From Candidatus Yanofskyibacteriota bacterium (GTDB lineage Bacteria > Patescibacteriota > Minisyncoccia > 2-02-FULL-40-12 > GWA2-44-9), in assembly GCA_016181045.1 (NCBI GenBank), contig JACPAB010000001.1, positions 1 through 45,704 of the forward strand: a stretch of 45,704 nucleotides of DNA, written 5' to 3'. Below the pieces are notes generated by a model. It ran no database searches and was not told the origin of the DNA. It worked only from the letters and a program-made list of their open reading frames with translations. A program made the translations under genes and the position numbers. Below are positions 5,380 through 44,957 of the stretch, one piece after another (position 1 is the stretch's first letter; each line of letters starts with the position of its first letter).

Positions 5380-5403
5380 TTTTTTAACTGGTCATAACAT
5401 AGA

Positions 5404-5468
5404 GATTAGGACTTAGCCAGTAGAACTTAGAATCAGATTCTAATGGCTAAAAACTAATGGCTAATTAC
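5404..5468. repeat. Intergenic palindromic repeat, copy 1 (TTAGCCANTAGAACTTAGAA ... TTCTAATGGCTAA)
   Basis: Same inverted-repeat unit recurs near 8749, 20639 and 33131. Confidence 0.75.
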
Positions 5469-8500: not shown

Positions 8501-8749
8501 GGTAAAGCCCAATTCGGGGGCCAGAGATTCGGAGAAATGGAAGTGTGGGCCTTGGAAGGATACGGGGCCGCCCACACCCTGCAAGAAATGCTGACCATCA
8601 AGTCCGATGATGTTCTGGGCCGCGCGAAGACGTATGAATCGATCGTGAACGGGGAAGAAATAAAAGCGCCGCATTTACCGGAGTCATTCAAGGTATTATT
8701 GTCCGAAATTAAAGGTCTGGCTTTGAACGTGGAACTTTTAGAGAAGTGA
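5594..8749 (+). CDS. rpoB: DNA-directed RNA polymerase subunit beta
   Basis: Full-length RpoB; signature [25 protein letters not shown]. Likely start at internal ATG 5594 ([18 protein letters not shown]) rather than 5561. Confidence 0.97.
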
Positions 8750-8815
8750 TTAGGATTTAGCCATTAGAACTTAGAATAATTTCTAATAACTACTGGCTAA
8801 TAACTAATGGCTAAT
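8749..8815. repeat. Intergenic palindromic repeat, copy 2, abutting the rpoC start codon
   Basis: gattaggatttagccattagaacttagaa...ttctaataactactggctaataactaatggctaat directly before tATG. Confidence 0.75.
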
Positions 8816-8816
8816 T

Positions 8817-11800
8817 ATGGACTTATCATCGATAAAACTTAAGCTCGCGTCGCCGGAGGACATAATGTCCTGGTCTTACGGAGAGGTTACCAAGCCGGAA
8901 ACCATCAACTACCGAACGCAGAAGCCCGAGAGGGAAGGTCTTTTTTCCGAGGCCATTTTTGGTCCGACCAAGGACTGGGAGTGTTATTGCGGCAAATACA
9001 AAAGGATCCGGTATAAGGGCATCATCTGCGACAGGTGCGGTGTCGAAGTTACCCGCTCAATAGTCAGAAGAGAGAGAATGGGTCACATTAAGCTGGCCGC
9101 TCCGGTCGCTCATATTTGGTTCCTGCGGGGCGTGCCTTCGAAAATCGCCGCAATCCTGGGCGTTTCTCTCCCTGACCTGGAGAAGGTTATTTATTTCGCA
9201 AGCTATGTCGTAACCAAAGTGAACGAGGACTTGAAAGCCGAGGCCATGAAGAGGATCGAATCCGAGTTCAAATCGAAACTCAAGAACGCTAAGAACGAAG
9301 AGGGGCGGGAGAATTTGAAGGAACTTAAAGACAGGGAGAAGAACAGTTTAAAAAATCTCATAAAATACCAAATCATATCCGAACTGGACTTCAGGGATCT
9401 CTCTTTGAAATATGGAGAAGTGTTCGAGGCCAGGATCGGCGCCGAAGGCGTCAGACATTTGCTGGAAGAAATGAATCTCGAGGATCTTATCCAAGAACTC
9501 GAAGGAGATCTAAGTAACGAGGTAAATCCTCTGGAACAGAGAAAGGTTGCCCGCCGGCTCAAGTTTGCTAAGGGTATGCTCAAGGCCGGTATCCGGCCGG
9601 AATGGGCCATTATGACCACTTTGCCGGTAATTCCTCCGGCGTTGCGGCCGATGGTTCCGCTTGACGGCGGCAGATATGCCACCTCGGATCTCAACGATTT
9701 ATACAGACGGGTCATAAACAGAAACAACCGTCTGAAACATTTGCTTGAATTGAAAGCCCCGGAAGTCATCACCAAGAATGAAAAGAGAATGCTTCAGGAA
9801 GCGGTTGACGCCTTGATAGACAATTCCATGAGAAGGGGGCAGGTTACGACCGCCGCATCGACCGGCCAAAAGAGGGCTTTGAAGTCATTGGCCGATATGC
9901 TCAAGGGCAAGCAGGGCAGATTCAGGCAGAACTTGCTCGGAAAGCGCGTGGACTATTCAGGCCGTTCGGTTATCGTCATCGGAGCGGAACTTGGCATTGC
10001 CGAGTGCGGACTGCCCAAACACATGGCTTTGGAACTGTTCAAACCGTTCGTTATTGGAATTCTTATAAAGAAAGAGCTTGCCCACAATATAAAATCGGCG
10101 ACCCGTTTGATAGAACAGGAAACCCCGGATGTCTGGGCCGCATTGGAAGAGGCGATGCACGAGAAGTTGGTATTGCTCAATCGTGCTCCGACTTTGCACC
10201 GTCTCTCCGTGCAGGCCTTCAAGCCGGTCCTTATCGAAGGTAAAGCCGTCAAGATCCCGGCCCTGCCGACTCACGCCTTTAACGCCGACTTTGACGGAGA
10301 CCAGATGGCCGTTCACTTGCCCCTGACCAATGAAGCCCAGACGGAAGCAAGAGAACTGATGCTGGCCAGCCACGGAATATTGAAGCCGGCAACCGGAGAA
10401 CCGGTTGCCACGCCAAGCCATGATATGTCGTTCGGCATTTATTATCTGACCAGCGTTCTGGAGGGAGCAAAAGGCCAGGGTAAAATATTTTCTTCCCGGT
10501 ATGAAGCGCTTTTATCTTTTGAGAACGATTTTACCGATCTAAGAGCCGTTATAAAAGTTCCCAATCCGGATTATAACCCGCCTTCGCCTGATGGCTTTGG
10601 CGAGGCAAAGCCGAAAATGATAGAGACGACTCCAGGCCGGATGATATTCAATAAAACCCTGCCTAAAGGGCATAAATATGTCAACAAAATTCTAACCAAG
10701 CCCGATTTGAAAATGATCGGTTCGGATATTTGGGATGAATATGGAGAAGAAACTACCGTCGAATTTTTAGACGCGATTAAAGATCTCGGTTTCCACTATG
10801 CGACTGTCTCGGGCATCTCCTGGGGATTGAATGACCTGAAGATCCCTCCCGAGAAGCCGCAGATAATTGCCGAGTCCGAAAAACTTATCGAAGAAAACGG
10901 GCAACTCTACGAAGACGGTCTCCTTACCGAATACGAGAGAAGGTCCAAGGCCATCGAGATCTGGAACGAGACCAAGTCCAAGCTTTCCGACTTGGTCAAG
11001 AAACAGGTTTCCGACCAGGACCCGGCGTTCCTTATCGTTGACTCCAAATCCAGAGGCAACTGGTCGGTGCTTGACCAGATGATGGGCATGAGAGGCATCT
11101 TCGTGAATCCGGCCGGAGAGTTCATTGAACTTCCCGTAAAAAATTCTTTGAAAGAAGGCCTTACCTCGCTTGAATACTTTATTTCAACCCATGGCGCCCG
11201 AAAAGGTCTGGTGGACACCGCCTTAAAGACGGCAACCGCCGGATACCTGACCAGGCGTTTGGTTGATGTTGCCCAAGATGTCGTCATCACCGAAGACGAC
11301 TGCAAAGACAAGGAGGGCTACACGCTTTATGCCGAGGACTCCAAGTTCAGCGGCGAGTCATTGGGCAGGAGAGTGAAGGGCCGCGTAGTGATGGAAGATA
11401 TTGTTGATGCCAACGGGGAAGTTGTGGTTAAGAAAAGCAAGATAGTCGACAAGGAAGCATCAAAGAAAATAGAGGACCTTAAGCTCGCCAAGATAAGGAT
11501 CCGGTCCCCGATAAAGTGCAAATCACCCAACGGCATCTGCCGCCTTTGCTACGGATACGATTTGTCAAAAAATAAGATGGTCGACATCGGCGAAGCCGTG
11601 GGTATCGTGACCGCGCAGGCCATCGGAGAACCGGGAACCCAGCTGACGATGAGGACATTCCACACCGGCGGCGTTGCCGGCGGCGCGGACATTACAATGG
11701 GATTGCCTCGGGTCGAAGAGATATTTGAAGTTCGACCGCCCACATTTAAAGCCCTAATTGCTGACGTGAACGGCAAAGTATTATCCGTCCAAGATACAGG

Positions 11801-20423: not shown

Positions 20424-20633
20424 TTATTTAACCGTTTGGCTACGGGTATACGGCATCAATGCCATATATCTGGCGAGTTTTACCGCGTCGGCTATCTTCC
20501 TTTGGTGTTTATTGCAAAGCTTGTTCCTTCGGGATGTCGCAATCTTAAACTGTGAAGTAACATACTTCCTTAGGAATTGAGTGTTCTTGTAGTCCACTCT
20601 GTTTATATTATCTTGGCAAAACTGACAATTCAA
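20424..20633 (-). CDS. rpsR: 30S ribosomal protein S18
   Basis: CQFCQDNINRVDYKNTQFLRKYVTSQFKIATSRRNKLCNKHQRKIADAVKLARYMALMPY. Confidence 0.93.
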   Translation of the reverse strand: MNCQFCQDNINRVDYKNTQFLRKYVTSQFKIATSRRNKLCNKHQRKIADAVKLARYMALMPYTRSQTVK

Positions 20634-20638
20634 ATTAG

Positions 20639-20699
20639 TGATTAGAACTTAGCCAATAGAACTTAGAACTAAATACTAATGGCTAATAACTAATGGCTA
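20639..20699. repeat. Intergenic palindromic repeat, copy 3
   Basis: gattagaacttagccaatagaacttagaa...actaatggctaataactaatggctag; its end supplies the ssb stop codon. Confidence 0.75.
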
Positions 20700-21239
20700 G
20701 AAAGGCAGGTCTTCTTCTTTTATTTTCATTTCGTCTTCTTCGACCCCGGCATTCATCGGTTCGTTCTCGTCTATTATCGGAATATCTGCGTCTTTGACGG
20801 GACCAGCTTTTTTGATATCGGCCATCGGCTCGCCTCGCGAAGCGGGGCTTTCGTTCGAATATGCGGCTCCTGCCGGTGATCGGAGTGAGGCATCGCCCAC
20901 TCCTGGGGAACTCTGTCGAGGCCCCAACTGAAGGTTCTCGGCGATTATCTCGGTGATATATTTTTTGACGCCGCTTGAATCGGTCCAGTTCCTGGTCTGG
21001 AGCCGGCCTTCTATCATGACCAGCCCGCCCTTTTTAAGATATTGTGTCGCAACATCCGCCAGGCGGCCCCAGGCAATAACGGTATGGTATTCGGTGGCGT
21101 CTTTGCGCTGGCCGGAAGGATCTTTCCAGACCCGATTGGTGGCCATTCTAATGGTGGCGACACTCTGTCCGCTCGGAATAGATCTGGAATCCGGGTCTTG
21201 GGTTAATCTTCCTATTAATACTACCTTATTTAAATTCAT
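20697..21239 (-). CDS. ssb: Single-stranded DNA-binding protein
   Basis: MNLNKVVLIGRLTQDPDSRSIPSGQSVATIRMATNR; acidic tail EEDLPF. Start inferred at 21239. Confidence 0.94.
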   Translation of the reverse strand: MNLNKVVLIGRLTQDPDSRSIPSGQSVATIRMATNRVWKDPSGQRKDATEYHTVIAWGRLADVATQYLKKGGLVMIEGRLQTRNWTDSSGVKKYITEIIAENLQLGPRQSSPGVGDASLRSPAGAAYSNESPASRGEPMADIKKAGPVKDADIPIIDENEPMNAGVEEDEMKIKEEDLPF

Positions 21240-21980: not shown

Positions 21981-22032
21981 ATCCCGTACGAAGCAGAAGC
22001 ACGCTGCGGGCCCTCGCGGCTTCGTACGGGAT
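21981..22032. repeat. 52 bp palindromic element, family B, intergenic copy
   Basis: ATCCCGTACGAAGcagaagcacgctgcgggccctcgcggCTTCGTACGGGAT; second copy at 31555..31606 inside an oppA-like gene. Confidence 0.85.
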
Positions 22033-22584: not shown

Positions 22585-23640
22585 TTAGATCTTGATTTCC
22601 ACCACATCTCCTTCTCGAATTATATAGTCGCGGCCGACGGTACGAAGAAGGCCTTTAGAGCGGGCGGGAGCATACCCGCCGGATTCGAGGAGCGTTTTCC
22701 AGTTTATCACTTCGGCCCGGATGAATAACTTTTCAAAATCGGTATGGATGGCGCGGGACGCTTTCGGTATAAAGTCGCCGATGTGCGCGGTCCATGCCCG
22801 GCTCTCGTCTTCTCCTGTTGTGAGAAATGTAACAAGGCCGAGAGTTTTATACGCTTTTTTTATAAGCTGGTCCAAACCGCTCTCTTTTATTCCGAATTCT
22901 GTTAGATATTCTTTTTTTTCGTCTGCAGTTGATTCCGAAAGAAGCAGTTCCAGAGGCGTGGATAGAACGACATAGTCCCTTCCGGCCATCGCTTTTAGCA
23001 AATCAGGCCCAGGTTGCCAGCCGTCAGACATTTGGGACTCGGAAACATTTAGAACAAAAATTACCTTTTTCCCGGTTAGTAAATTCAATTCTGGTAATTT
23101 TGATATCTGATTTATTTCACGATCGTGTAATAAATCAGATTTTGTTTTTACCTTCTTTTCTCGTTTTTCCTTTGTTTCGAGGTCGGCCAGCTCGAGCTCC
23201 GTTTGAATTATCTCGATGTCGTCGGCCGGGCTTGCCCCGTTAGAAGTAGGTCGCCCAGGGCGACCGTCAGTTCTAACGGGGTCGATTTTGTTGTCATATC
23301 TAATTACATTTTCATTCTCAAAAACCCGGACAACATGGGCGATGGCGTCCACTTCTCTGATATTGGCCAAAAACTTGTTTCCCAGCCCTTCGCCCTGGGC
23401 CGCGCCTTTGACCAGACCGGCGATGTCGAAGAAGTCGATGGTCGTATAGATCTTTTTCTTTGAATCGGACAGCAAGGACAGAGCATCCACCCTCTCATCG
23501 GGCACGGCAACAACACCCACATTCGGGTCGATAGTCGTGAAGGGATAATTCTGTATATCCACTTGTTTGTTGGTCAGGGCCTTGAACAGCGTTGACTTGC
23601 CGACATTAGGCAAACCCACGATTCCTATGGATAATGGCAT
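22585..23640 (-). CDS. ychF: GTP/ATP-binding protein YchF
   Basis: SIGIVGLPNVGKSTLFKALT; C-terminal TGS-like domain. Confidence 0.95.
   Translation of the reverse strand: MPLSIGIVGLPNVGKSTLFKALTNKQVDIQNYPFTTIDPNVGVVAVPDERVDALSLLSDSKKKIYTTIDFFDIAGLVKGAAQGEGLGNKFLANIREVDAIAHVVRVFENENVIRYDNKIDPVRTDGRPGRPTSNGASPADDIEIIQTELELADLETKEKREKKVKTKSDLLHDREINQISKLPELNLLTGKKVIFVLNVSESQMSDGWQPGPDLLKAMAGRDYVVLSTPLELLLSESTADEKKEYLTEFGIKESGLDQLIKKAYKTLGLVTFLTTGEDESRAWTAHIGDFIPKASRAIHTDFEKLFIRAEVINWKTLLESGGYAPARSKGLLRTVGRDYIIREGDVVEIKI
23105..23140. repeat. 36 bp palindrome, family C, in frame in ychF
   Basis: ATCTGATTTATTtCACGATCGTGtAATAAATCAGAT. Confidence 0.88.
23235..23281. repeat. 47 bp palindromic element, family A, in frame in ychF
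   Basis: CCCCGTTAGAA..GGTCGCCC-a-GGGCGACC..TTCTAACGGGG; encodes VRTDGRPGRPTSNG. Confidence 0.88.
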
Positions 23641-24860: not shown

Positions 24861-26756
24861 GTGATTAGCAAGATTTTCAGGGCCTATGATGTGAGAGGGA
24901 TTTATCCGGAAGAGCTCAACGAAGAGGCGGCTTTTAGGATTGGCCAGGCGGCGGCTGTTTTTCTGAAAGCCAAGACAATGATTGTCGGGGAAGATGCCAG
25001 AAGCTCGTCGCCGGCGATAAGCGCCAAGGTCAAAGAGGGCATAACTAGCACCGGCTGTAACGTGATATCAATCGGCAGATCAACCACGCCTCTTTTTTAT
25101 TTTTCACTCAATAAACTGGGCGCCGACGGAGGGATCATGGTAACGGCATCCCATAATCCACCGCAATATAACGGCCTTAAGGTGGCAGGCAGGGAGGCGG
25201 AACCAATAAGCGTCAACTCTGGTCTTTTGGAGATAAAAAAGCTTACCGATGCAGATATTCCTATGAGCGATAACCGCGGAAGTGTTAAAGAAATATCGTT
25301 CAAGGAGGACTATGTTAGTTTCCTGATAAAAAATTCGGGAAGCGTCATCGAAAAGGCCAAGAATATCAAGCTTGTGATCGATGCCTCCAATGGTATGGCT
25401 CCGCTGATTTTGTCTGATGTTATGAAAAAGGCTGGTCCCAATGCCACATTTTTGAATTTCGATATAGACGGAACTTTTCCAGGCCATCTTCCCGACATAT
25501 CGAAAGAAGAAAATCTCAAAGAGTTAAAAGATAAAATATTGGAAATCAGCGCGGATATAGGCTTCGCATTTGACGGGGATGCTGATCGTCTTGCCGTACT
25601 GGATGAGAAGGGGAATAAGATCAGCGCCGATTTTGTGGTCGGACTTTTATATAAAGCTAAAAGCAGCTGGTTCAAAAGACCGAAAGTCGCCTATGACCTG
25701 CGCTTCTCAAAATCGGTCAAGGAACTCTTTGGCAGGAACGGCTTTCCGTCACGCGTCGGCTATGCGTTCGTCAGGAAAACTATGAAGGCCGCCAGCGCCG
25801 ACTTCGGAGGGGAATTGGCCGGCCATTTTGACTTTAAAGAAATGAACTACGCCGAATCGGCTGTCCTGGCAATGCTGAAAGTGGTTGCCATTGTTGCCAA
25901 AGAACGAAAACCCTTGTCCAAGCTTGTCGAACCATTCCAAAAATATGCCAATTCCGGGGAAATAAATACAGAAGTCCAAAATCGGGAAAATGTTTTGGAT
26001 AAAATAAAAAACGCATACAAAGACGGCAAAACCAACGAGTTGGACGGCATCACTGTTGAATACAACGACTGGTGGTTCAACGTGAGAGCGTCGAATACCG
26101 AACCCATCCTGCGTCTGGTGGTAGAAGCCGACAGCCGGGAACTTATGGACAAGAAAGTCAAAGACATAACATCTCTCATTGGTTCGGAAGAAGTCGCAAA
26201 AGAATATGAGAAAACGGTTGTTATGCCGGAACAAAAAGGCAAACAGTTCTTGCTGTGTTCTGTCGGTTTGGTCGGGGCCGGAAAGACCACAGTTTTAAAG
26301 CCATTGGCGGAAAAATTTGGTTTGGTCAGGATCTCTACCGACGAGATAAGGAAAATACTTAAAGAAAAGGGATATGGCTATAAAGCTGCCGAGAGCATCG
26401 CCCTATCCGTCGGCGAAAAATACGCCCGCCAGGGTCACGGGATCGCGATAGATGCCGATTGTTCAAGGGCCGAGAAGAGGCGGGAGATAGAGGAGGTGGC
26501 AAGAAAAATAAACATTCCTGTAATTTGGATACACGTAAACCCCCCTGAAGAATTCATAATAAACAAACTGAAGAATTATCCGCACACCTGGCTGTTCAAA
26601 GATGCCGAGCAGGCGATACAGAACTACTATGCCCGCAAACCCTTGCACGAGAAGCTTGATTTTGACTTCACTTACACTTTCGATACCTCGAGAAGCGACC
26701 TCGGCAAGCAAATAGACGAAGCGTCAGAAAAGATAAAGAGAAAACTGGGGCTATAA
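24861..26756 (+). CDS. Phosphomannomutase/phosphoglucomutase fused to a C-terminal P-loop kinase-like domain
   Basis: MVTASHNPPQYNGLK and DGDADRL PMM motifs; C-terminal GLVGAGKTTVLKPLAEKFGLVRISTDEIRKIL Walker A domain. Confidence 0.9.
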   Translation: MISKIFRAYDVRGIYPEELNEEAAFRIGQAAAVFLKAKTMIVGEDARSSSPAISAKVKEGITSTGCNVISIGRSTTPLFYFSLNKLGADGGIMVTASHNPPQYNGLKVAGREAEPISVNSGLLEIKKLTDADIPMSDNRGSVKEISFKEDYVSFLIKNSGSVIEKAKNIKLVIDASNGMAPLILSDVMKKAGPNATFLNFDIDGTFPGHLPDISKEENLKELKDKILEISADIGFAFDGDADRLAVLDEKGNKISADFVVGLLYKAKSSWFKRPKVAYDLRFSKSVKELFGRNGFPSRVGYAFVRKTMKAASADFGGELAGHFDFKEMNYAESAVLAMLKVVAIVAKERKPLSKLVEPFQKYANSGEINTEVQNRENVLDKIKNAYKDGKTNELDGITVEYNDWWFNVRASNTEPILRLVVEADSRELMDKKVKDITSLIGSEEVAKEYEKTVVMPEQKGKQFLLCSVGLVGAGKTTVLKPLAEKFGLVRISTDEIRKILKEKGYGYKAAESIALSVGEKYARQGHGIAIDADCSRAEKRREIEEVARKINIPVIWIHVNPPEEFIINKLKNYPHTWLFKDAEQAIQNYYARKPLHEKLDFDFTYTFDTSRSDLGKQIDEASEKIKRKLGL

Positions 26757-27764
26757 CAAGCCCATCTTCTCTTTGACCTCTTTGAGGGTCTTACTGGCGA
26801 GTTCCCGGGCTTCTTCTTCCGATTTCTCGAGTATTTCCAATACCATTTTGGGATTATCTTCAAATTCTTTTCTCTTTGTCTGGAATGGCTTCAGGAATTC
26901 CACAACAACTTCGGCCAGATCATTTTTGAAATCAACATAGGATTTGCCTTCGTATTCGGCTTCAATGTTTTTTATCTCTTTGCCCGAGAGCAGGTGAAAA
27001 ATGGTTATGAGATTTGATATGGCCGGTTTTTCTTCATCGTTGTAATAAATTTCTTTTCCGGAGTCGGTGACGGCCCTTTTTATCTTGGCGCGAATGGTGT
27101 CAGGAGTATCAACAAGGAAAATACAACTTTCGTCTCCGGCCTGCCCCGCGGCGACTTTGCCGCTTTGCGGGGTCTTGGACATCTTTTTACTCGCGTCCTG
27201 GAGCGACATGATGCGGGCGCCCTCGGTTAGTTTTGCCTTGACCGGTTCAAACGTTTGTCCAAACATGGAATTAAATTTCTTAGCTATTTCGTTGGCGAGG
27301 TCAATGTGAGGCATTTGGTCCTCTCCGACAGGCACGAGATTTGATTTCTCCGCGAGAATATCAGCTGCCATGAGAACGGGATAATCAAGCAAGCCCATGT
27401 GGTTGTATTTAGGCGATTTTTCAAGCTGTTCTTTGTATGTCGGCAGACGGTCCAGCCAGCTGACAGGAGTGATTGTGTTAAAAAGCCACGCCAATTCCGT
27501 ATGTTGGGGGACTTTTGATTGGCGGATGAGCAATGCTTTGTCGGGGTCAATTCCTGCGGCTAGATAATCCAAAACCACATCCATTATCTGCTGCTGGAAT
27601 GTTTTCGGGTCGTAAGGAGTGGTGATACCGTGGTAATCAACTACAGCGAAAATTGACTGGTGGGCAGAGTTTTGTAATTCTATCCAATTTTTTATGGCAC
27701 CCAGGTAATTACCGAGATGTAATTTGCCCGAGGGGCGAATGCCGCTAAATACTCTGGTTTTCAT
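26751..27764 (-). CDS. trpS: Tryptophanyl-tRNA synthetase
   Basis: FSGIRPSGKLHLGNYLGAIKNW; KKMSKTPQ; length and domain order. Confidence 0.94.
   Translation of the reverse strand: MKTRVFSGIRPSGKLHLGNYLGAIKNWIELQNSAHQSIFAVVDYHGITTPYDPKTFQQQIMDVVLDYLAAGIDPDKALLIRQSKVPQHTELAWLFNTITPVSWLDRLPTYKEQLEKSPKYNHMGLLDYPVLMAADILAEKSNLVPVGEDQMPHIDLANEIAKKFNSMFGQTFEPVKAKLTEGARIMSLQDASKKMSKTPQSGKVAAGQAGDESCIFLVDTPDTIRAKIKRAVTDSGKEIYYNDEEKPAISNLITIFHLLSGKEIKNIEAEYEGKSYVDFKNDLAEVVVEFLKPFQTKRKEFEDNPKMVLEILEKSEEEARELASKTLKEVKEKMGLL
27144..27172. repeat. Palindromic element in frame in trpS near the KMSK loop
   Basis: CCCCGCGGCgactttGCCGCTTTGCGGGG; encodes part of TPQSGKVAAGQAGDES. Confidence 0.6.
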
Positions 27765-27831: not shown

Positions 27832-28155
27832 CTATCGTATCGTTGAACCGTTCGGAACTTCTTTTATCGGTTGTATGAGTATAGGATTATCGTTCTCGTC
27901 GCTTGCGGCGAGGATCATGCCCTGCGATTCCAGGCCCATCATTTTTCTTGGCTCCAAGTTTTCTAAAACAAGCACCTGTTTATTTATCAATTCCTGTTTT
28001 TAGTACGACAATTTCAAGCCGCCTAGAATTTGACGGGTTTCATTGCCTATATTCACCCGGAGTTTGTATAATTTCTCGCTACCTTCAATATCTTCCACGC
28101 TTTCAATAGTTCCAACCACAATATTTAATTTTTTGAAGTCGTCGATATTTATCAT
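27832..28155 (-). pseudogene. tRNA-binding (Trbp111/MetG C-terminal-like) domain protein with in-frame TAA
   Basis: Manual translation: MINIDDFKKLNIVVGTIESVEDIEGSEKLYKLRVNIGNETRQILGGLKLSY*KQELINKQVLVLENLEPRKMMGLESQGMILAASDENDNPILIQPIKEVPNGSTIR. Confidence 0.8.
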
Positions 28156-28247
28156 TAAAAAATCCTAGTAATAATATTTAAGAATACACAAAATTCCAAA
28201 AAACGGCCAGAAGTTTACGATTAGCCAGGTTTAACTATGTTTTGACT

Positions 28248-28283
28248 TTATTATTTATGTATCCTACGATACATAAATAATAA
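28248..28283. repeat. Palindrome upstream of the PaaX/Cas2-like gene, 16 bp arms with 4 nt loop
   Basis: TTATTATTTATGTATC-ctac-GATACATAAATAATAA; overlaps a TTGACT-17-TACGAT promoter. Confidence 0.92.
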
Positions 28284-28293
28284 TGAGGGAATA

Positions 28294-28851
28294 ATGAGTG
28301 AGAACAAGGAAAAATCAAAATTTATTCACCAATTTGCCAAAGTGATGTTGGAGATAGGGAAAACAAGCGGGTATATTATAGCCGATATCTTTGAGGTTTG
28401 GGCCACGACTTCATATAAAGGTGTGAGAATGAAAGAAAAAATAAATTATGATTTTCCTAGTTATCGTCGCGGTCTATACAATCTTAAAAACAGGGGATTG
28501 GTGAATATAAACGGTCAGAAGGTGAGCATGACCGGCAAAGGCCGGATTTGGCTTAAAACATCATATCTCAAACACCTAAGGATCCTTCATCCGAAGTGGG
28601 ACGGCAAGTGGCGGGTAGTGATTTTTGACATACCCCAAGAACTGCACACAAACAGAAATCGTTTTAGACGGAAATTAAAATCGTTGGGGTTCTTTCTCTT
28701 ACAAAAAAGCGTTTTGGTAATTCCATATCCGTGTGAAGAGGATCTCGCCGAGATTTGCGTTAATTTTAAGATTTCTGACTATGTTGATGTGATTGTTGCC
28801 GACTCCATCGGCTCTCGAAAAGAAGAGGTTAAGAGATTCTTTGAACTTTGA
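28294..28851 (+). CDS. PaaX-like / Cas2-like domain protein
   Basis: WDGKWRVVIFDIPQELHTNRNRFRRKLKSLGFFLLQKSVLVIPYPCEEDLAEI; N-terminal wHTH-like segment. Confidence 0.75.
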   Translation: MSENKEKSKFIHQFAKVMLEIGKTSGYIIADIFEVWATTSYKGVRMKEKINYDFPSYRRGLYNLKNRGLVNINGQKVSMTGKGRIWLKTSYLKHLRILHPKWDGKWRVVIFDIPQELHTNRNRFRRKLKSLGFFLLQKSVLVIPYPCEEDLAEICVNFKISDYVDVIVADSIGSRKEEVKRFFEL

Positions 28852-28860
28852 GTCGAATTT

Positions 28861-28900
28861 TATGATTATTTCTGTATCGTACGATACAGAAATAATCATA
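28861..28900. repeat. Perfect 40 bp palindrome downstream of the PaaX/Cas2-like gene
   Basis: TATGATTATTTCTGTATCGT|ACGATACAGAAATAATCATA. Confidence 0.95.
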
Positions 28901-28989: not shown

Positions 28990-30831
28990 TTATACCTCAA
29001 TCAATACCGGGAGCACCATCGGGCGACGTTCCGTTTTCTGGAAAAGGAAGAGCCCGATCTGGTTTCTGATGGCGTCTTTCAGGTATGACAGGTTGGTTTC
29101 TTGTCCCGCCGATTTATTTTCAACAATGAATCGTATCCTTTTTCTGACTTGGGACAAAAGTTCCTTGTTCTCTTTGAGATAAACGAATCCTCTGGAAATG
29201 ATGTCGGGACTGCCCCGGACCTGACCTGTTTTCGAGTCAATAAGCGCGAAGATGACGAACATTCCGTCCTCGGCTAATATCTGCCTGTCCCTTAAGACGA
29301 CGTTGCCCACGTCGCCGACGCCGAGGCCGTCAACGTAGACCGGGTCGGACGGGGCCTTGTCTTTATCGAACCACCACTTTTCCGGTTCCAGGTGGACTAT
29401 CGAACCGTTGTCGGCAATAATAACATTCTCCGGCGGCATGTCTTCTTCCTGGGCTATTAACCCATGATTGATCATCTGCGAATATTGGCCGTGGACCGGA
29501 AGCAGGAATTTGGGTCTGATGAGCTTCAGAAGCTCCCTGATATCCTCTTTGCTGCCGTGGCCGGAAGCGTGGACATCAAGCATTTGGTAGTTGAACACTT
29601 TCGAGCCGTTCCGGTAGAGTTGGTCTTTGAGGAATTGAACATCGGATTCGTTGCCCGGAATGACCGACGAAGAGAAGATGTAAGTATCGTTGGTGGTCGG
29701 GTGGATGTGCCGGTGCTCGCCGTTGGCGATACGCATGAGAACGGCATTGCCTTCTCCCTGGGCGCCCGTCACAACCGCCACGATCTTATCGTGCGGATGG
29801 TTATTTACTTCCTCCATGGTTATCTGGGTTCCGCGCTGGAACTTCAGATACCCGAGATGTTTGGCTATCTCGACGTTGGTTTTCATAGAATAGCCGTCGA
29901 ATACGACCTTCTTGCCCATTTTCTCGGCCAGGGTAACTATCTGCTGGACACGGTTCAAGGTCGAAGCGAAACATCCGATTATCGTCAAGCCGGTAGCGTC
30001 CAACATCAACTGTTCTATATCTTTGGTAACGGCGCTTTCTGATAATGAATGTCCCTCTTTTTCCGCGCCGGTAGAGTCGCCCATGAAAAGAAGGACGCCT
30101 CGGTCGCCTATGGCCTTAAATTCTTCCAGGTCGGCCGGGGGATCGTTGACCGGATTGGAATCAAACTTATAGTCAATGGCGTGGATTATTACGCCTGCGG
30201 GTGTCCGGATCTCAAACATAAGGTCGTCGGGAATGCTGTGGTTTATACGATGGGCCTTTACGGTGAAGTATTGGCCGACCTTAACTTCGTCTCCCGGCTT
30301 CATGTCGTATATATCGAGCGGTTTCTTGTCTTTGAACTCATCCATCCTCTTGGTTATGAGGGCTTTGGTTAAAGGCGCGGCATAAACATCCGGATCACCG
30401 ATCCTGTCTCTGATGAACGGAACAGCGCCGATATGGTCCAAGTGGCCGTGAGAAAAGAACATCGCATGGATCATGTCTTTTTTATCGTCCAGATAACTGA
30501 CGTTGGGAATTGAGAAGTCGATACCGGGCATGTTCTGGCGGGGGAATCCAAGTCCGGCATCGATGAGGATTATCTCATCGTTATATTGGATGCAGGCCAT
30601 GTTGTTCCGGCCGATCTCGCCGAGGCCTCCGAAGTTGATGATCTTTAGGCCGCCGTTCCTTGCGGCTCTGGCGTGGTCCTCCGGTGTGCCCTCGTTGATC
30701 TGCCTTAAAACCCTTATCTTGCGGATAAGAGGTTTTTGCCAGCGCCGATCGCCAAGGCGGGGAGCGCGTCTGCCCCTTGAACGCGCGGGCCTGTCGCCCT
30801 GCGGCTTTTCTTTACTTTTTTGAGGTGTCAT
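28990..30831 (-). CDS. rnj: Ribonuclease J
   Basis: FGGLGEIGRNNMACIQYNDEIILIDAGLGFP, FFSHGHLDHIGAVPFI. Start placed at internal ATG 30831. Confidence 0.94.
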   Translation of the reverse strand: MTPQKSKEKPQGDRPARSRGRRAPRLGDRRWQKPLIRKIRVLRQINEGTPEDHARAARNGGLKIINFGGLGEIGRNNMACIQYNDEIILIDAGLGFPRQNMPGIDFSIPNVSYLDDKKDMIHAMFFSHGHLDHIGAVPFIRDRIGDPDVYAAPLTKALITKRMDEFKDKKPLDIYDMKPGDEVKVGQYFTVKAHRINHSIPDDLMFEIRTPAGVIIHAIDYKFDSNPVNDPPADLEEFKAIGDRGVLLFMGDSTGAEKEGHSLSESAVTKDIEQLMLDATGLTIIGCFASTLNRVQQIVTLAEKMGKKVVFDGYSMKTNVEIAKHLGYLKFQRGTQITMEEVNNHPHDKIVAVVTGAQGEGNAVLMRIANGEHRHIHPTTNDTYIFSSSVIPGNESDVQFLKDQLYRNGSKVFNYQMLDVHASGHGSKEDIRELLKLIRPKFLLPVHGQYSQMINHGLIAQEEDMPPENVIIADNGSIVHLEPEKWWFDKDKAPSDPVYVDGLGVGDVGNVVLRDRQILAEDGMFVIFALIDSKTGQVRGSPDIISRGFVYLKENKELLSQVRKRIRFIVENKSAGQETNLSYLKDAIRNQIGLFLFQKTERRPMVLPVLIEV

Positions 30832-30834
30832 ATG

Positions 30835-30918
30835 TGGGTACGGAGAGATTTGAACTCTCACGGGATTGCTCCCACACGCTCCTGAAGCGTGCGCGTATAC
30901 CAGTTCCGCCACGTACCC
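30835..30918 (-). tRNA. tRNA-Leu (CAG)
   Basis: GGGTACG TGGCGGAACTGGTATACGC ... anticodon loop TTCAGGA ... GAGTTCAAATCTC CGTACCC A; no encoded CCA. Confidence 0.92.
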
Positions 30919-31034: not shown

Positions 31035-32828
31035 TTACTCCCAGCCTCTCTTGGTTTCCATATACCACTTTTCAATGTTCGCGAATCTGTCCGACGGCAT
31101 GGATATGATCTTGCTTTCAAAGCCCCGGATGTCTTTGGTCTGGCCGTAAATATAGTATGAGTTATACAGGAACACTGCCGGCGCGTCTTCGATCACTAAT
31201 TTTTGGAATTCATCGTATTTTTGCGCCCGCTCCAGCGGATTGAGTATCTTTCTGGCTTCTTCAAGCAATGTGTCGGCGGTCTTGTTGCTGTATAGAGCCA
31301 GGTTCAATCCCGGATCGCGCCTTTGTGAAGAGTGCCAAAGCGTGAACGGGTCAGGATCAAGGGTCAGTATTTCTCCGAAAAGCAGCATTTGGTAGTTCCT
31401 TTCTTTGATGGCTCTTTGCAGTTCCGGCGTAGGTAGTATCTCAACTTCAATATTCACTCCCACTTTGGCCCATTGCTCCTTGAGCGCATTTGCTACGGCG
31501 ACTAATTCCGGCCAGGTTGACGTGGTCAGTTTCAGGTCTATTTTCTTTCCGTTCATCCCGTACGAAGTAGAGGCGCGCTGCGAGCCCTCGCGACTTCGTT
31601 CGGGATTCAGCAGCTTATTGGCCTGATCAAGGTCGAAAGGATATGTCTTAACGTCGCTGTTGATGTCCAAAATGTTTCCCACCATCGGCGAGGCGACCGA
31701 TTCGCCCTTGCCTTCCAATATCTTCGAGAGCAACTCATTTTTGTCGGTGGCGTGGTTCAAGGCCAGGCGGATATTCTTGTCGGCCAGCTCTTTCGACTGG
31801 TCTTGATTGAAGAACACTCCGAAATATCTGGGCATTTTGAGTTCGCGGACATTCAGCCGCCTTTTGAATTTTATTTTCTTTAAGTTGGGTCCCGAAACGA
31901 AAGAGATATTTTCGATGCTGTTTTTGTTGTAGGCATCTATCATCGCGTCTTCCGAATCAAAGAACCTGAACCCGATACGATCTATATGAGACCGGCCAAG
32001 ATAGAACTTCTCGTTGACTGCCAGCTCATATTCTCTGACTCTTCCGAGCGTATCTTTCTTGAGCTTGGCGAATTTATACGGGCCGGAGCCGATGGGCTTC
32101 AGGTTCAAATCGGCCTGGCCGAAATTTATCGGTTTGATGTCCTGCCAGGCATGCTTGGGCAGTATCCTGATGGTAAAATTATTTACGAACTGGGCATATC
32201 TTTCTTTCAGTTTGAATATTATGGTGTAGTCGTTAACTTTGTCCGTCTCAACTCCCTGCCAGTTGACCCTCTGCTGGCTTCCGTAATCGGGGTTTTGGGC
32301 GGTTTGGACGGTGAATACGACATCATCCGCGGTAACAGCCGTACCATCGTGCCAAAAGACGTTATCTCGGAGATAGATAGTATAATTCAGCCCATCGCTG
32401 GAAACCTCATATGACTTAGCCAGGTCGGGGATGAGCTTCCCTGCCTCGTTGTATTTCATGAGTCCCGAATAAATAAGCGAGGTCAGGTCCCTGTCCGCAT
32501 CGTTGCTTTGTGAAAGCAGAGGGTTGATAAGCCGGGGCTCTCCGACCATGCCTTCGGTGAAAGACCCGCCATTATCCGGTACGCCCGTTGTGTAATGGTA
32601 AAAAGATGTGAACGGGATAGAGATGACCGAACCGAGCATTACCAGAGCAAAAATAAATATCAAATAGCGCTCTTTGTTGGAGAGGACTTTCGGGATCAGG
32701 CGTAATTTATTGCGCTCAACGCTCTTAAGAAGAGAGTCCTTGATGCCTTCTTTGTGTCTGGCGGAAGGACCTTCTTTTTCGGACTTTAAACCGAAAAAAT
32801 CGTCGAGCTGGTTATTATCCTGGAGCAC
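31035..32828 (-). CDS. ABC-type peptide transporter substrate-binding protein (family 5, OppA/DppA-like)
   Basis: SYEVSSDGLNYTIYLRDNVFWHDGTAVTADDVVFTVQ. Confidence 0.9.
   Translation of the reverse strand: MLQDNNQLDDFFGLKSEKEGPSARHKEGIKDSLLKSVERNKLRLIPKVLSNKERYLIFIFALVMLGSVISIPFTSFYHYTTGVPDNGGSFTEGMVGEPRLINPLLSQSNDADRDLTSLIYSGLMKYNEAGKLIPDLAKSYEVSSDGLNYTIYLRDNVFWHDGTAVTADDVVFTVQTAQNPDYGSQQRVNWQGVETDKVNDYTIIFKLKERYAQFVNNFTIRILPKHAWQDIKPINFGQADLNLKPIGSGPYKFAKLKKDTLGRVREYELAVNEKFYLGRSHIDRIGFRFFDSEDAMIDAYNKNSIENISFVSGPNLKKIKFKRRLNVRELKMPRYFGVFFNQDQSKELADKNIRLALNHATDKNELLSKILEGKGESVASPMVGNILDINSDVKTYPFDLDQANKLLNPERSREGSQRASTSYGMNGKKIDLKLTTSTWPELVAVANALKEQWAKVGVNIEVEILPTPELQRAIKERNYQMLLFGEILTLDPDPFTLWHSSQRRDPGLNLALYSNKTADTLLEEARKILNPLERAQKYDEFQKLVIEDAPAVFLYNSYYIYGQTKDIRGFESKIISMPSDRFANIEKWYMETKRGWE
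31555..31606. repeat. 52 bp palindromic element, family B, in frame in the oppA-like gene
   Basis: ATCCCGTACGAAGTagaggcgcgctgcgagccctcgcgACTTCGTtCGGGAT; encodes PERSREGSQRASTSYG. Confidence 0.88.
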
Positions 32829-32905: not shown

Positions 32906-33130
32906 TTAAGAAAAATAGATTCTTGCGACCGATACGGCTATGAACAGAACGGCCAAGATAATGGTTGCCCGGAAAATAATTTTTTCGGCGCCTCTTTTGG
33001 TGCTGTATTCAATACCACTGCCGCCCATAGCGGAACCCAATCCGCTGCCTTTTTGCTGCAGCAAAATACCGGCCACCACAAGGATGGACAATGCTATCTG
33101 GCCGTAAGTTAAAATTTGTATTAAATCCAT
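32906..33130 (-). CDS. secG: Preprotein translocase subunit SecG
   Basis: 74 aa, two TMs, LLQQKGSGLGSAMGGSG. Confidence 0.9.
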   Translation of the reverse strand: MDLIQILTYGQIALSILVVAGILLQQKGSGLGSAMGGSGIEYSTKRGAEKIIFRATIILAVLFIAVSVARIYFS

Positions 33131-33200
33131 AATTAGTGATTTAGGACTTAGCCATTAGGACTTAGAATTTCTAATTTCTATTGGCTAATTACTAATGGCT
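33131..33200. repeat. Intergenic palindromic repeat, copy 4
   Basis: aattagtgatttaggacttagccattaggacttagaa...ttctattggctaattactaatggct fills the gap between secG and the next gene. Confidence 0.75.
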
Positions 33201-33551
33201 TTATGTTACCACTTTTGTCGTTGCCGAAATAAATATATTTACTATCGAGATTATGATGGTCGCCCATACCAGAGCCGTCAGGTCCTGGACCACGACGAAG
33301 TCGAAAGCATAGTCAACCGTCCACAACATTAAAGCATTTATGACAATTGTCCAGAGTCCCAAGGTCAGGATTATCAGGGGCATCGATATCACTTTCAGTA
33401 TCGGCTTGACGGCGAAGTTCAGGATACCAAGCAGGACACCGGCAAGCAGATACTCTTTTGTCCCGCCGTTTATGACAAATCCCGGAACCAGGTAAGTAGC
33501 CGCAAAAATAGCTAAAGAATTGCCCAAGACCCTTATTATGAAGCTAACCAT
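33201..33551 (-). CDS. Phage holin family (4-TM) membrane protein
   Basis: MVSFIIRVLGNSLAIFAATYLVPGF...GILNFAVKPILKVISMPLIILTLGLWTIVINALMLW; start at internal ATG. Confidence 0.8.
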   Translation of the reverse strand: MVSFIIRVLGNSLAIFAATYLVPGFVINGGTKEYLLAGVLLGILNFAVKPILKVISMPLIILTLGLWTIVINALMLWTVDYAFDFVVVQDLTALVWATIIISIVNIFISATTKVVT

Positions 33552-33588: not shown

Positions 33589-35046
33589 TCAATATTGACC
33601 AAGAGACCTCCGGTGGAGGCGGCGGTAATAAGTGATGGCGAAACGGTGGGCTTCGGCGTCGATGCTTTTAATAAGATTACGGACATTTTGCGGGAGCTTT
33701 GACATCGAGACGGGTTTTTCCAGGGTGGTCGAGAATATCTCATATTTACCTTTAGCCAAAGCAATGATTGGGATTTGAGATTTAGGATTTTTGATTTGTT
33801 TGCTCGGAGAAGGTTCACGGTGCTTTAGCCCGGGAATCTCTGTAGGATTTAGAAATTTGGATTTAGAAATTGCCGCTCTAGCGGCGTTGAGCTGGCCTTT
33901 GCCGCCGTCTATGAGTATCAAGTCCGGGAATGACCACTCGTCATGTTTGAGACGGCGCTCCAAGACCTCCCGGAGCATTCCGGTATCTCCGCTTGGAATC
34001 TGATTTATACTACGATCGTGAAATAAAGCAGATCTTGTTTTTGTAATTCTCGCTCTTATTTTAAACTTGCGGTAGAGGTTCTTGTCCGGCCGACCGCTGA
34101 TGAACGTGACCATGGCGCCTGTGGCATTTGTGCCCTGGATATTGGAAACGTCGTAGCCCTCTATGCGATATGGTACGCGGTCTAATTTTAATAGGCGGGC
34201 TAATGCTTTTAGGGTGTTTTGTGCTCTGACGTCGTTTTCAGTATTAAGTATACCGTATTTAGTATTACGAATAATTTTAGCGTTTTCGAAAACTCTCTTT
34301 AGTTTCTCTATTTTGTCGCGCAATTCTATTGCTTCCTGAAATTTTTCTTCTTTCCCGAGTTTTATCATTTCTTTTTCCAGGTTTTTCACTAGAGAGGTTT
34401 TCTTTCCCGACAAGATTTTCTTAATCGCTTTGATGCCATCTTTATATATTACACCATAATACGATCGTGGTGAGGTGTAAGATGGTGGCATGAGTGCTTT
34501 TGGTTCATTGTCTTTTAAGCAACAAACGCCGAGGCACTTTCCTATATGATAGTTCAAGCAGAAGTTGTTGTGCGGATTTTTACAGGTGCAATAGGGGAAT
34601 ATTTTTCTTAGGAATTTTAATGTTGATTTAAGAACGGCTCCGTCAGTAAACGGGCCAACAGAATCGGATATTTCAATATTTAAATATTTAAATATGCGTG
34701 GTTGATGAGTGAGAAAAATTTTAGGAAATTTTTCGTGAGTGAAAACCACGTAGAAGTATTGTTTGTCGTCCCGCATTACGATATTGAATCTTGGCTGCAG
34801 GTTCTTTATTAGTTGAGATTCGAGTATCAACGCTTCGATGTCGGATTCAGTGACCCTGAATTCCAGACTGTTCGCGGTCGAGACCATTTTTTGTATCCTT
34901 GGGTCCGTTGTTTTTAAATACGAACGCAGGCGCGCTTTTAAGTTTGCCGCTTTTCCTATGTATATTTTCTTGCCTTCTTCTTTGAACATATAAATTCCGG
35001 GGGAAGAAGGCGATCCGGAAATAATTTTTGCCAAGAGGTCGCTTGT
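33589..35046 (-). CDS. uvrC: Excinuclease ABC subunit C, lacking a recognisable C-terminal HhH
   Basis: GSPSSPGIYMFKEEGKKIYIGKAANLKARLRSYL; IEGYDVSNIQGTNATGAMVTF; DLILIDGGKGQLNAA. Confidence 0.93.
   Translation of the reverse strand, partial: TSDLLAKIISGSPSSPGIYMFKEEGKKIYIGKAANLKARLRSYLKTTDPRIQKMVSTANSLEFRVTESDIEALILESQLIKNLQPRFNIVMRDDKQYFYVVFTHEKFPKIFLTHQPRIFKYLNIEISDSVGPFTDGAVLKSTLKFLRKIFPYCTCKNPHNNFCLNYHIGKCLGVCCLKDNEPKALMPPSYTSPRSYYGVIYKDGIKAIKKILSGKKTSLVKNLEKEMIKLGKEEKFQEAIELRDKIEKLKRVFENAKIIRNTKYGILNTENDVRAQNTLKALARLLKLDRVPYRIEGYDVSNIQGTNATGAMVTFISGRPDKNLYRKFKIRARITKTRSALFHDRSINQIPSGDTGMLREVLERRLKHDEWSFPDLILIDGGKGQLNAARAAISKSKFLNPTEIPGLKHREPSPSKQIKNPKSQIPIIALAKGKYEIFSTTLEKPVSMSKLPQNVRNLIKSIDAEAHRFAITYYRRLHRRSLGQY
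33772..33872. repeat. AT-rich inverted-repeat element in frame in uvrC
   Basis: ggatttgagatttaggatttttgatttg ... ggatttagaaatttggatttagaaatt; similar motifs to the 4976..5105 repeat; encodes SKFLNPTEIPGLKHREPSPSKQIKNPKSQIP. Confidence 0.5.
33998..34033. repeat. 36 bp palindrome, family C, in frame in uvrC
   Basis: ATCTGATTTATActACGATCGTgaaATAAAGCAGAT; cf. ychF copy. Confidence 0.85.
34449..34480. repeat. 32 bp palindrome with ACGATCGT core, in frame in uvrC
   Basis: TTACACCataatACGATCGTggtgAGGTGTAA. Confidence 0.75.
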
Positions 35047-40641: not shown

Positions 40642-40932
40642 ATGAGCAAAATCAAACCACTGTCGGGCCATATTCTCCTGGAGCCCCTCCGGGAGGAGAA
40701 GAAAAAAGGGGGCATTATCCTGCCCGAAACGGCAGAAAAAGAACGCTCCGAAAAAGGCAAAGTTATTGCCGTGGGCGCGGGGCGTCCGGATAAGGACGGC
40801 AAAAAGGTGCTCATGGAGGTTAAAAAAGGCGACATAGTTATTTTTACCAAATACGGCCCGAACGAAGTTAAGGTCGGCGACAAAGAATACTTGATTGCCA
40901 AGGAAGACGACATTTTGGCGATTTTGAAATAA
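40642..40932 (+). CDS. groES: Co-chaperonin GroES
   Basis: KIKPLSGHILLEPLREEKKKGGIILPETAEKERSEKGKVIAVG. Confidence 0.95.
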   Translation: MSKIKPLSGHILLEPLREEKKKGGIILPETAEKERSEKGKVIAVGAGRPDKDGKKVLMEVKKGDIVIFTKYGPNEVKVGDKEYLIAKEDDILAILK

Positions 40933-41055
40933 TTTACCATTTGCCAATTACCATTTGCCAATTATTTACCATTTAATCATTGCGTCATTTTCTGAAAATG
41001 GATAAATGAAACGATGATAAATTAATGGAAATTGGAAAATGATAACTGGTAAATT
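40932..41055. repeat. Long imperfect inverted repeat in the groES-groEL gap
   Basis: AATTTACCATTTGCCAATTACCATT ... AATGGAAATTGGAAAATGATAACTGGTAAATT. Confidence 0.65.
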
Positions 41056-41057
41056 AA

Positions 41058-42749
<1,692 letters not shown>

Positions 42750-42865
42750 GTAATTAAGAAATTGAGAAATTAGGTCAAGAGCGGCCGTACGGCCGCTCTT
42801 GACGTATTTATTATGTAGTCATACAATCTAGGTACTTCATTAAAAACATAAGAAAAAGGCCAAAA

Positions 42866-43274: not shown

Positions 43275-44957
43275 ATGGAAACAAAATTTATCTTTGTTGC
43301 TGGTGGGGTCATGTCGGGGATAGGCAAGGGCGTTACTGTCTCTTCTACGGCGAGAATTCTCAAGGACTATGGCTTTCGTGTTACGGCCGTGAAGATAGAC
43401 CCTTATCTTAATGTTGACGCCGGCACGATGAACCCCACCGAACACGGCGAGGTTTTTGTGACAGATGACGGTTGTGAATGCGACCAGGATGTTGGCAACT
43501 ACGAGAGATTTCTCGACGAGAATATTTACAAGGATAACTATATGACTTCCGGTCTGGTGTATAAGTCAGTGATAGACCGAGAGAGAAATCTTGGCTACGC
43601 CGGTAAGTGTGTTCAAATAATTCCCCACATCACTGATGAAGTGGAAAATCGGCTGATGAAAGTTGCCAAAAAACAAAAAGCTGATTTTGTTCTCGTTGAA
43701 ATAGGCGGAACGGTGGGCGAGTATGAAAACTTATTATTCCTTGAGACCGGCAGAATAATGAAACTAAAAATGCCCGGTCATGTCTTGTTTTTACTTGTCA
43801 GTTATTTCCCGATTCCTGATATGATAGGCGAAATGAAAACAAAGCCGACCCAGCATGCGGTCCGCGCGCTTAACTACGCCGGTATCCAACCCGACATTAT
43901 CATTGCCCGCTCAACACAGCCGTTGGATGAAATAAGAAAGAACAAGGTCTCTATTTTCTGCAACTTGGATGTTAAAGATGTGATATCCGCTCCGGATTTC
44001 AAGGGCTCAATATACGAGATTCCGGTTAATTTTGAGAAAGATAATTTGGGAAAAAGAATTTTGGAAAAATTAGGCATCAAGTCGCGCTCTAAAAAATCAA
44101 ACAAGTGGGATTTGATGGTTAAAAACATAAAAAGCGCGGCTAAACCGGTCAAAATAGGCATAGTGGGTAAATATTTCGGTACAGGCGACTTCACTCTAGC
44201 CGACTCGTACCTATCTGTAATAGAGGCGGTCAAGCATGCCGCCTGGTCTTTGAAAAGAAAACCGGAAATTACCTGGCTTAGCGCCGAGAATTATGAAAAG
44301 GACCCGGCTGTCTTGGAAGAATTAAAAAATTTCGATGGTGTTATCGTACCGGGTGGATTTGGCAAAAGGGGAGTTGAAGGCAAGATCGCCGCAATCAAAT
44401 ATGTCCGGGAAAATAACATTCCTTTTCTTGGGTTATGCTATGGATTGCAATTAGCGGTTGTGGAATTTGCCAGAAACGCCTGCGGCCTTGAAGATGCTCA
44501 TACTTCCGAAGTAAATCCGGATACGTCACGGCCGGTAATATGCACGATGCCGGATCAGTTAGTGAATATTAAAGAAAAAAGGATGGGCGGTTCTATGCGC
44601 CTCGGAGAGTATAAATGCAAATTAACCCCACAAGCCACAAGCTATAAGCTCTATGCTAAAAGCCTGATTTCCGAACGCCACCGCCATCGCTACGAGGTAA
44701 ATAACCACTACCGCTTGAAGTTGGAAAAAGAGGGAATGCTCGTTGCCGGCACTCATCCCATTAGAACTAACGGTCGTCTGGGACGACCTACTTCTAACGG
44801 GACAGGTCCACAAAAAAACTTAATTGAAATTATAGAAATCCCGGAACACAAGTTTTTTGTTGCCACTCAATTCCATCCGGAATTCAAGTCGCGGCCTCTC
44901 ACGCCGCATCCATTATTTGTCGGGTTGATAAAATCAGCGTCAGGGGTTAAAATTTAA
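43275..44957 (+). CDS. pyrG: CTP synthase
   Basis: KFIFVAGGVMSGIGKGVTVSSTARIL; GAT domain PFLGLCYGLQLAVVEFARN; FFVATQFHPEFKSRP. Confidence 0.96.
   Translation: METKFIFVAGGVMSGIGKGVTVSSTARILKDYGFRVTAVKIDPYLNVDAGTMNPTEHGEVFVTDDGCECDQDVGNYERFLDENIYKDNYMTSGLVYKSVIDRERNLGYAGKCVQIIPHITDEVENRLMKVAKKQKADFVLVEIGGTVGEYENLLFLETGRIMKLKMPGHVLFLLVSYFPIPDMIGEMKTKPTQHAVRALNYAGIQPDIIIARSTQPLDEIRKNKVSIFCNLDVKDVISAPDFKGSIYEIPVNFEKDNLGKRILEKLGIKSRSKKSNKWDLMVKNIKSAAKPVKIGIVGKYFGTGDFTLADSYLSVIEAVKHAAWSLKRKPEITWLSAENYEKDPAVLEELKNFDGVIVPGGFGKRGVEGKIAAIKYVRENNIPFLGLCYGLQLAVVEFARNACGLEDAHTSEVNPDTSRPVICTMPDQLVNIKEKRMGGSMRLGEYKCKLTPQATSYKLYAKSLISERHRHRYEVNNHYRLKLEKEGMLVAGTHPIRTNGRLGRPTSNGTGPQKNLIEIIEIPEHKFFVATQFHPEFKSRPLTPHPLFVGLIKSASGVKI
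44758..44801. repeat. 44 bp palindromic element, family A, in frame in pyrG
   Basis: CCCATTAGAACTAACGGTCGTCtgGGACGACCTACTTCTAACGGG; encodes IRTNGRLGRPTSNG. Confidence 0.88.

Follow-up and report, generated by a model that had tools for sequence, protein, structure and literature searches.

The window analysed here is a 45,704-nt stretch from a Patescibacteria genome (the host genome, G000) of 457 kb that is 84.6% complete and related to Ca. Yanofskybacteria. Between trpS and the RNase J gene rnj it carries a gene encoding a winged-helix protein with a Cas2-like domain, and a palindrome lies on either side of this gene (Table 1). The initial annotation had described a PaaX/Cas2-like gene bracketed by palindromes with a common core, and this description was borne out: both palindromes contain ATTATTTnTGTATCnTACGATACAnAAATAAT, and the coordinates and arms claimed for the 16-bp-arm upstream copy and the perfect 40-bp downstream copy agree with ours. 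The promoter motif that it had proposed was also found, with the predicted TTGACT at 28242-28247 and, after a 17-bp spacer, the predicted TACGAT at 28265-28270, which places the putative -10 element inside the upstream palindrome.

Table 1. Coordinates of the gene, its palindromes and related features in the window.
Feature	Position	Strand	Description
Upstream palindrome	28248..28283	.	16-bp arms, 4-nt centre, 36 bp total
Downstream palindrome	28861..28900	.	Perfect 40 bp, 20-bp arms, no loop, same core
Winged helix (wHTH) + PaaX_M/Cas2-like protein gene (L005)	28294..28851	+	185 aa
Sigma70-like promoter TTGACT-17-TACGAT	28242..28270	+	Predicted, read from sequence
RNase J gene (rnj)	28990..30912	-	Right-hand neighbour; 3' side is the insertion site
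trpS	26751..27764	-	Left-hand neighbour; adjoins rnj without the element in many relatives
L010-type dispersed copy (sister gene L010, G000:C6)	23105..23140	.	In frame in ychF, peptide SDLLHDREINQ
L010-type second copy	33997..34033	.	In frame in uvrC, peptide SALFHDRSINQ

Long palindromes of this kind are sparse in the genome: besides this pair, the window has 2 perfect zero-loop palindromes with arms of at least 10 bp, and 326 kb of the host genome contains 12 with arms of at least 12 bp, 3 of which adjoin the six homologous genes described below. A perfect zero-loop, GC-rich palindrome of 30 bp with a CGTACG centre lies at 42774-42803, 24 bp past groEL. Directly upstream of the element, at 27835-28155 on the minus strand, is a gene for a tRNA-binding domain resembling the MetG C-terminal domain; an in-frame TAA in its middle marks either a pseudogene or a sequencing error. 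No Cas1 gene or CRISPR array was noticed in the window, including among the genes neighbouring L005.

The C-terminal half of the window protein matches the PaaX_M "Cas2-like domain" model PF20803 (E=1e-21, 77.1 bits, gathering cut-off 24), while the Cas2 model TIGR01573 scores just under its cut-off (23.3 bits, cut-off 24.5) and the PaaX regulator model TIGR02277 far under (29.1 bits, cut-off 264.55). An AlphaFold model has a mean pLDDT of 82.7, mostly >90 in the Cas2 part and weaker in the winged helix, and its best structural match is E. coli PaaX (PDB 8a39), with Cas2 among the next matches. E. coli PaaX represses its own promoter through the operator TGATTC-N27-GAATCA (PMC9493321). Both proteins have a winged helix followed by a Cas2-like domain, but the window protein is 185 aa long against about 305, lacks the PaaX C-terminal part and is not accompanied by a paa operon. 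It shares with Cas2 the ferredoxin fold, the conserved FDIP aspartate and the QxSV motif, but carries an extra N-terminal winged helix. In an alignment of 93 family sequences D112, Q137 and S139 are invariant and align with the metal-binding Asp and the QxSV motif of Cas2, and R121 is also conserved; no His or Tyr occurs among the invariant or nearly invariant columns, as an HUH motif (two His) with a catalytic Tyr would have left.

The host genome encodes five homologs of the window protein, at 32-50% identity. Across the host and 94 relatives homologs occur in 53 of the 95 genomes, with up to 13 per genome and a patchy distribution in which presence or absence in incomplete bins is uncertain. 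In a species-level collection, a scan with a subset of the family alignment led to 512 confirmed loci. A single-sequence query of IMG/VR, which reaches close relatives only, returned no viral relatives. One homolog with a perfect downstream palindrome (L211) lies on a contig labelled Syntrophaceae, outside Patescibacteria, which reflects either transfer or a binning error. The family consists of solitary winged-helix, Cas2-fold proteins of Patescibacteria.

The association with palindromes extends across this family. Perfect zero-loop palindromes with arms of at least 12 bp were found within 150 bp upstream of 21/94 genes and downstream of 29/93, compared with 2/1011 control windows drawn from the same loci, and 16 of the 95 loci in this first set had palindromes on both sides. 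Such palindromes are more than 100-fold enriched beside family genes over the control windows. The pattern was replicated in another 56 loci, with counts of 3/54 upstream and 10/53 downstream, against 0/584 controls. Where a locus has two palindromes, their central 20 bp agree at 17.0 of 20 positions within the locus and at 7.7 of 20 between loci. Many homologs have no clear palindromes, especially in distant high-copy families such as that of G055.

A maximum-likelihood (ML) tree showed that close proteins have common palindrome centres, so that palindrome type tracks protein clade. The types, assigned by eye from centres and arms, are ATCATATGAT for L070/L075, CAATTG for L071/L079/L099, ACGATCGT for L010/L072/L093, ACCAATTGGT for L021/L022, GCGATCGC for L039/L094 and CGTACG for L024/L076. 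This rule predicted a CATATG centre for a gene retrieved later (L332, G021:C40; 67% identity to L070), and that centre was found. Orthologs at the same locus can differ by symmetrical arm changes (e.g., L014/L020 and L010/L072), and in the vertically inherited pair L024/L185 the 34-bp palindrome core is identical, with 87% identity in the gene region and 78-82% in the flanks. We rejected an RNA hairpin reading, since mismatches in imperfect stems have no excess of G-U over A-C (7 versus 6 of 35), and likewise plain intrinsic terminators, since the palindromes are loopless whereas the host's ordinary terminators are GC-rich with loops.

Several family members have additional copies of their cognate palindrome elsewhere in the genome. 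Types with copies away from their gene number four in G024, one in G023 and one in the host genome, and the types concerned are those of L070, L024, L071, L072, L075 and L010. G024 has 29 zero-loop palindromes (score of at least 12) in 309 kb, most belonging to the types of its four genes; over these approximately 309 kb of a genome of roughly 700 kb, flanking and dispersed copies number 2 and 4 for L024, 2 and 6 for L070, 1 and 2 for L071, and 2 and 3 for L072. The L024 type occurs in 1/95 genomes, the one with the L024 gene, in 7 copies. The L070 type (58 genomes) has 8 sites in G024, 1 in G019 and 1 weak site in G007, with 0 matches to a reversed-pattern control. For the L075 type, G023 has two copies beside the gene and two dispersed ones, and the host genome has one copy; the two matches in G018 have flanks that are mutual reverse complements, so they probably represent a single region. 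The L010/L072 type occurs in each of the 3 genomes known to carry the gene and in 6 of the 92 others (two of the six weak). Across types, some dispersed copies in G019, G012 and G021 occur without a detected cognate gene. Copies of the L010 type in the host genome comprise two beside the gene and three dispersed ones. Each of the latter lies in frame in an ORF, and the two in the window (Table 1) are decayed.

The window gene's own type behaves differently. Orphan copies of TGTATCNTACGATACA, which the initial annotation had proposed searching for, numbered 0 in 94 relatives and 0 in the host genome, where the search covered 326 kb of 457 kb as sequence and about 131 kb by pattern only, with 15% of the genome missing. 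Since no dispersed copy of its type was seen, the window gene may not spread its palindrome, may have arrived recently or may have a purely regulatory role.

Comparison with relatives shows that some dispersed copies are insertions, whose ends are approximate because the comparison genomes are a species-level set. A copy in uvrC of G024 is an in-frame insertion of ~33 bp relative to G023, G019, G026, G009, G008, G015 and G004. At a second position in uvrC, L010-type copies are present in the host genome, G019 and G026, and the site is empty in G023, G021, G009, G008 and G015; relative to these five genomes the window copy lies within an insertion of ~48 bp. The copy found in a wzy-like gene has kept its position across G000, G019 and G024 while its arms have changed, and the region is of similar length in relatives. 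We rejected this copy as a 36-bp insertion, given that relatives differ by only 1-4 aa in length; with so little net length change here, insertion is shown for some copies only. No clean target-site duplication was seen; in the L195/L201 comparison discussed below, a direct repeat is accompanied by an extra gene. A possible third decayed, ACGATCGT-centred palindrome (13/18 pairs) lies at 34447-34482 of the window, in the variable uvrC loop where G024 has its CATATG-type insertion.

Other short repeats are also dispersed in this genome. A second palindrome family, CATTCTCAYATTCT(YR)AGAATRTGAGAATG, occurs in 14/95 genomes, often in frame within genes (G000:C3:81272, C3:127296, C8:19892 inside metK, and C3:18980; loci L153-L166); none of the PaaX-like genes seen had this core, and a G024 copy (L155) is flanked by two ORFs that appear LAGLIDADG-like by eye. 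The window further contains a 52-bp inverted-repeat element, ATCCCGTACGAAG...CTTCGTACGGGAT, at 21981-22032 and 31555-31606, with more copies in the genome (L131, L133, L138), and a 48-bp inverted-repeat element, CCCGTTAGAA...TTCTAACGGG, at 23233-23280 and 44757-44804, where it is in frame in ychF and pyrG, respectively, and encodes the peptide GRxGRPTSNG; a third copy is at L130. An inverted-repeat family of about 65 bp, TTAGCCATTAG...CTAATGGCTAA, is found at 5396-5467, 8745-8819, 20632-20700 and 33127-33205 and in many copies elsewhere in the genome, and a dispersed repeat of about 130 bp lies between groES and groEL (40924-41062), with several genome copies (L133, L136, L138, L145).

The genes themselves also appear to change position. 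In many relatives rnj and trpS are neighbours or near neighbours, and the gap between them is occupied in the host genome (L005) and in G024 (L070); in G023, L075 adjoins the trpS flank at a distance of 1.3 kb from rnj. In the other examined genomes of that genome family, a search of the 1.5 kb around rnj revealed no homolog (the G012 contig ended early), and more distant genomes can have a homolog near rnj, as in G055 (L040, in the other orientation). The search for empty sites in relatives that the initial annotation had suggested thus yielded them, with rnj-trpS free of the element in most relatives. L005 and L070 fall in different deep clades of the ML tree, which implies either repeated filling of the rnj-trpS site or a change of occupant. 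The gene units of two Staskawiczbacteria (L195 and L201) lie on different sides of a shared segment, and in L195 the other site retains a single palindrome; the stretch that moved in L195 includes an extra gene and a direct repeat of ~28 bp, so this was not a clean transposition. These comparisons support the conclusion that the gene and its palindromes occasionally settle at a new site, rnj-trpS among them.

Among known systems RAYT/REP (REPIN) comes closest: a single-copy gene has its cognate palindrome on either side, a genome can contain several classes of gene and palindrome, the presence of dispersed copies hinges on the cognate gene and they are decayed where it is absent, and orthologous genes may have altered palindromes (PMC3116915, PMC3686654). 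The present family resembles it in having cognate palindromes on both sides, several classes per genome and changed repeats at orthologs; dispersed copies accompany the gene for the L070, L024, L071, L072, L075 and L010 types but not for the window type. However, its palindromes are longer (30-60 bp), perfect, zero-loop and often AT-rich, no tetranucleotide of the GTAG/GTGG kind is common to their flanks, copy numbers are low, and copies lie inside genes. Given the missing tetranucleotide and HUH/Tyr motif, the family protein, with its winged helix and Cas2 fold, is not a RAYT. Rickettsia palindromic elements are palindromic repeats in frame in protein genes (PMC10969869), but they are about 150 bp long and no repeat-bracketed gene is described in that source. 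PATEs and IS605-type elements are small repeats, and their near-terminal palindromes are related to transposon palindromes (PMC3119063), but these palindromes sit near the ends of a longer unit and the transposase is of the IS200/IS1341 type. We found no published description of such a gene-palindrome association in open-access PMC.

Several explanations could account for this pattern. In a plain autoregulator the palindromes would act as operators flanking the gene, possibly brought together by a loop, and the dispersed copies a small regulon. Consistent with this, a palindrome overlaps the predicted promoter not only at the window locus but also in the L193/L195/L201/L204 set, the architecture and best structural match are those of the repressor PaaX, so the fold can serve a plain repressor, the constraint that has kept the L024/L185 palindrome better conserved than its gene fits a regulator, and the window type lacks dispersed copies. 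Plain autoregulation nevertheless seems unlikely to us, as dispersed copies lie inside unrelated genes (uvrC, ychF and the wzy-like gene) as well as after unrelated genes, one of them is an insertion absent from relatives, and a long perfect palindrome past the stop codon is unnecessary for autoregulation. Movement of a different kind, in which the gene and both palindromes transpose as a single IS-like unit, would explain the empty rnj-trpS sites, the different placement of the L195 and L201 units with a lone palindrome marking the other site, and the alignment of same-genome paralogs (L195 versus L193/L204) from the upstream palindrome to just beyond the gene, with the downstream palindromes matching separately. 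We regard such a unit as improbable: no identical or near-identical full copies occur within one genome, the moved L195 segment is unclean, and lone palindromes outnumber gene copies. It is very improbable that another enzyme moves the palindromes and that the PaaX/Cas2-like gene is bracketed by chance; the same genomes do have other short inverted-repeat families without a known mobiliser, but here each type is tied to its own gene by flanking position and genome co-occurrence, and palindrome type and protein clade agree.

The explanation that we favor, and consider reasonably probable as a whole, is that these proteins recognise a cognate palindrome, repress themselves and are or were the agents that spread the palindromes. 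Each family protein would be specific for one palindrome type, which a dimer would most likely contact with its winged helices. The gene sits between two such copies, and since the upstream one overlaps the predicted promoter, the protein probably represses its own expression; judged from this overlap, autoregulation is likely for the window gene too and is compatible with a RAYT/REP-like role. Further copies are scattered in the genomes of several members, including as in-frame gene insertions. By analogy with RAYT/REP, the protein, or its nuclease-like Cas2 domain, may be or have been the agent that cuts and spreads its palindromes; alternatively, host machinery recruited by the Cas2-like domain may copy or move them. 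The window copy would represent the state of a gene with two palindromes whose dispersed copies have not survived. Weighing against this explanation are the missing dispersed copies of the window type, the many homologs that lack clear palindromes, the strong constraint on the vertically inherited L024/L185 palindrome, the wzy-like copy that is no clean insertion, and the genomes in which dispersed copies occur but no cognate gene was detected. The RAYT/REP-like reading offered in the initial annotation is well supported for the family, on the strength of dispersed cognate copies, the uvrC insertion and the empty sites; for the window gene itself the search for orphan palindromes came out negative. 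More tentatively, we propose that the Cas2-fold winged-helix protein could be an enzyme, either a nuclease with sequence specificity or one resembling a transposase, that disseminates its perfect palindromes through the genome. This would be a second and independent invention of the RAYT/REP style, built on the fold of CRISPR Cas2 and widespread in Patescibacteria.

Solitary genes of the Cas2-like and PaaX-like kind are frequent in Patescibacteria, and open-access PMC yielded no role for them; their link to dispersed cognate palindromes provides a function that can be tested. A Cas2-fold protein would join the few candidate movers of miniature DNA. The association also bears on the pre-CRISPR origin of the Cas2 fold, and it offers a source for in-frame protein insertions in the reduced genomes of Patescibacteria: if the proposal is true, a Cas2-fold palindrome spreader could write short peptides into host proteins.
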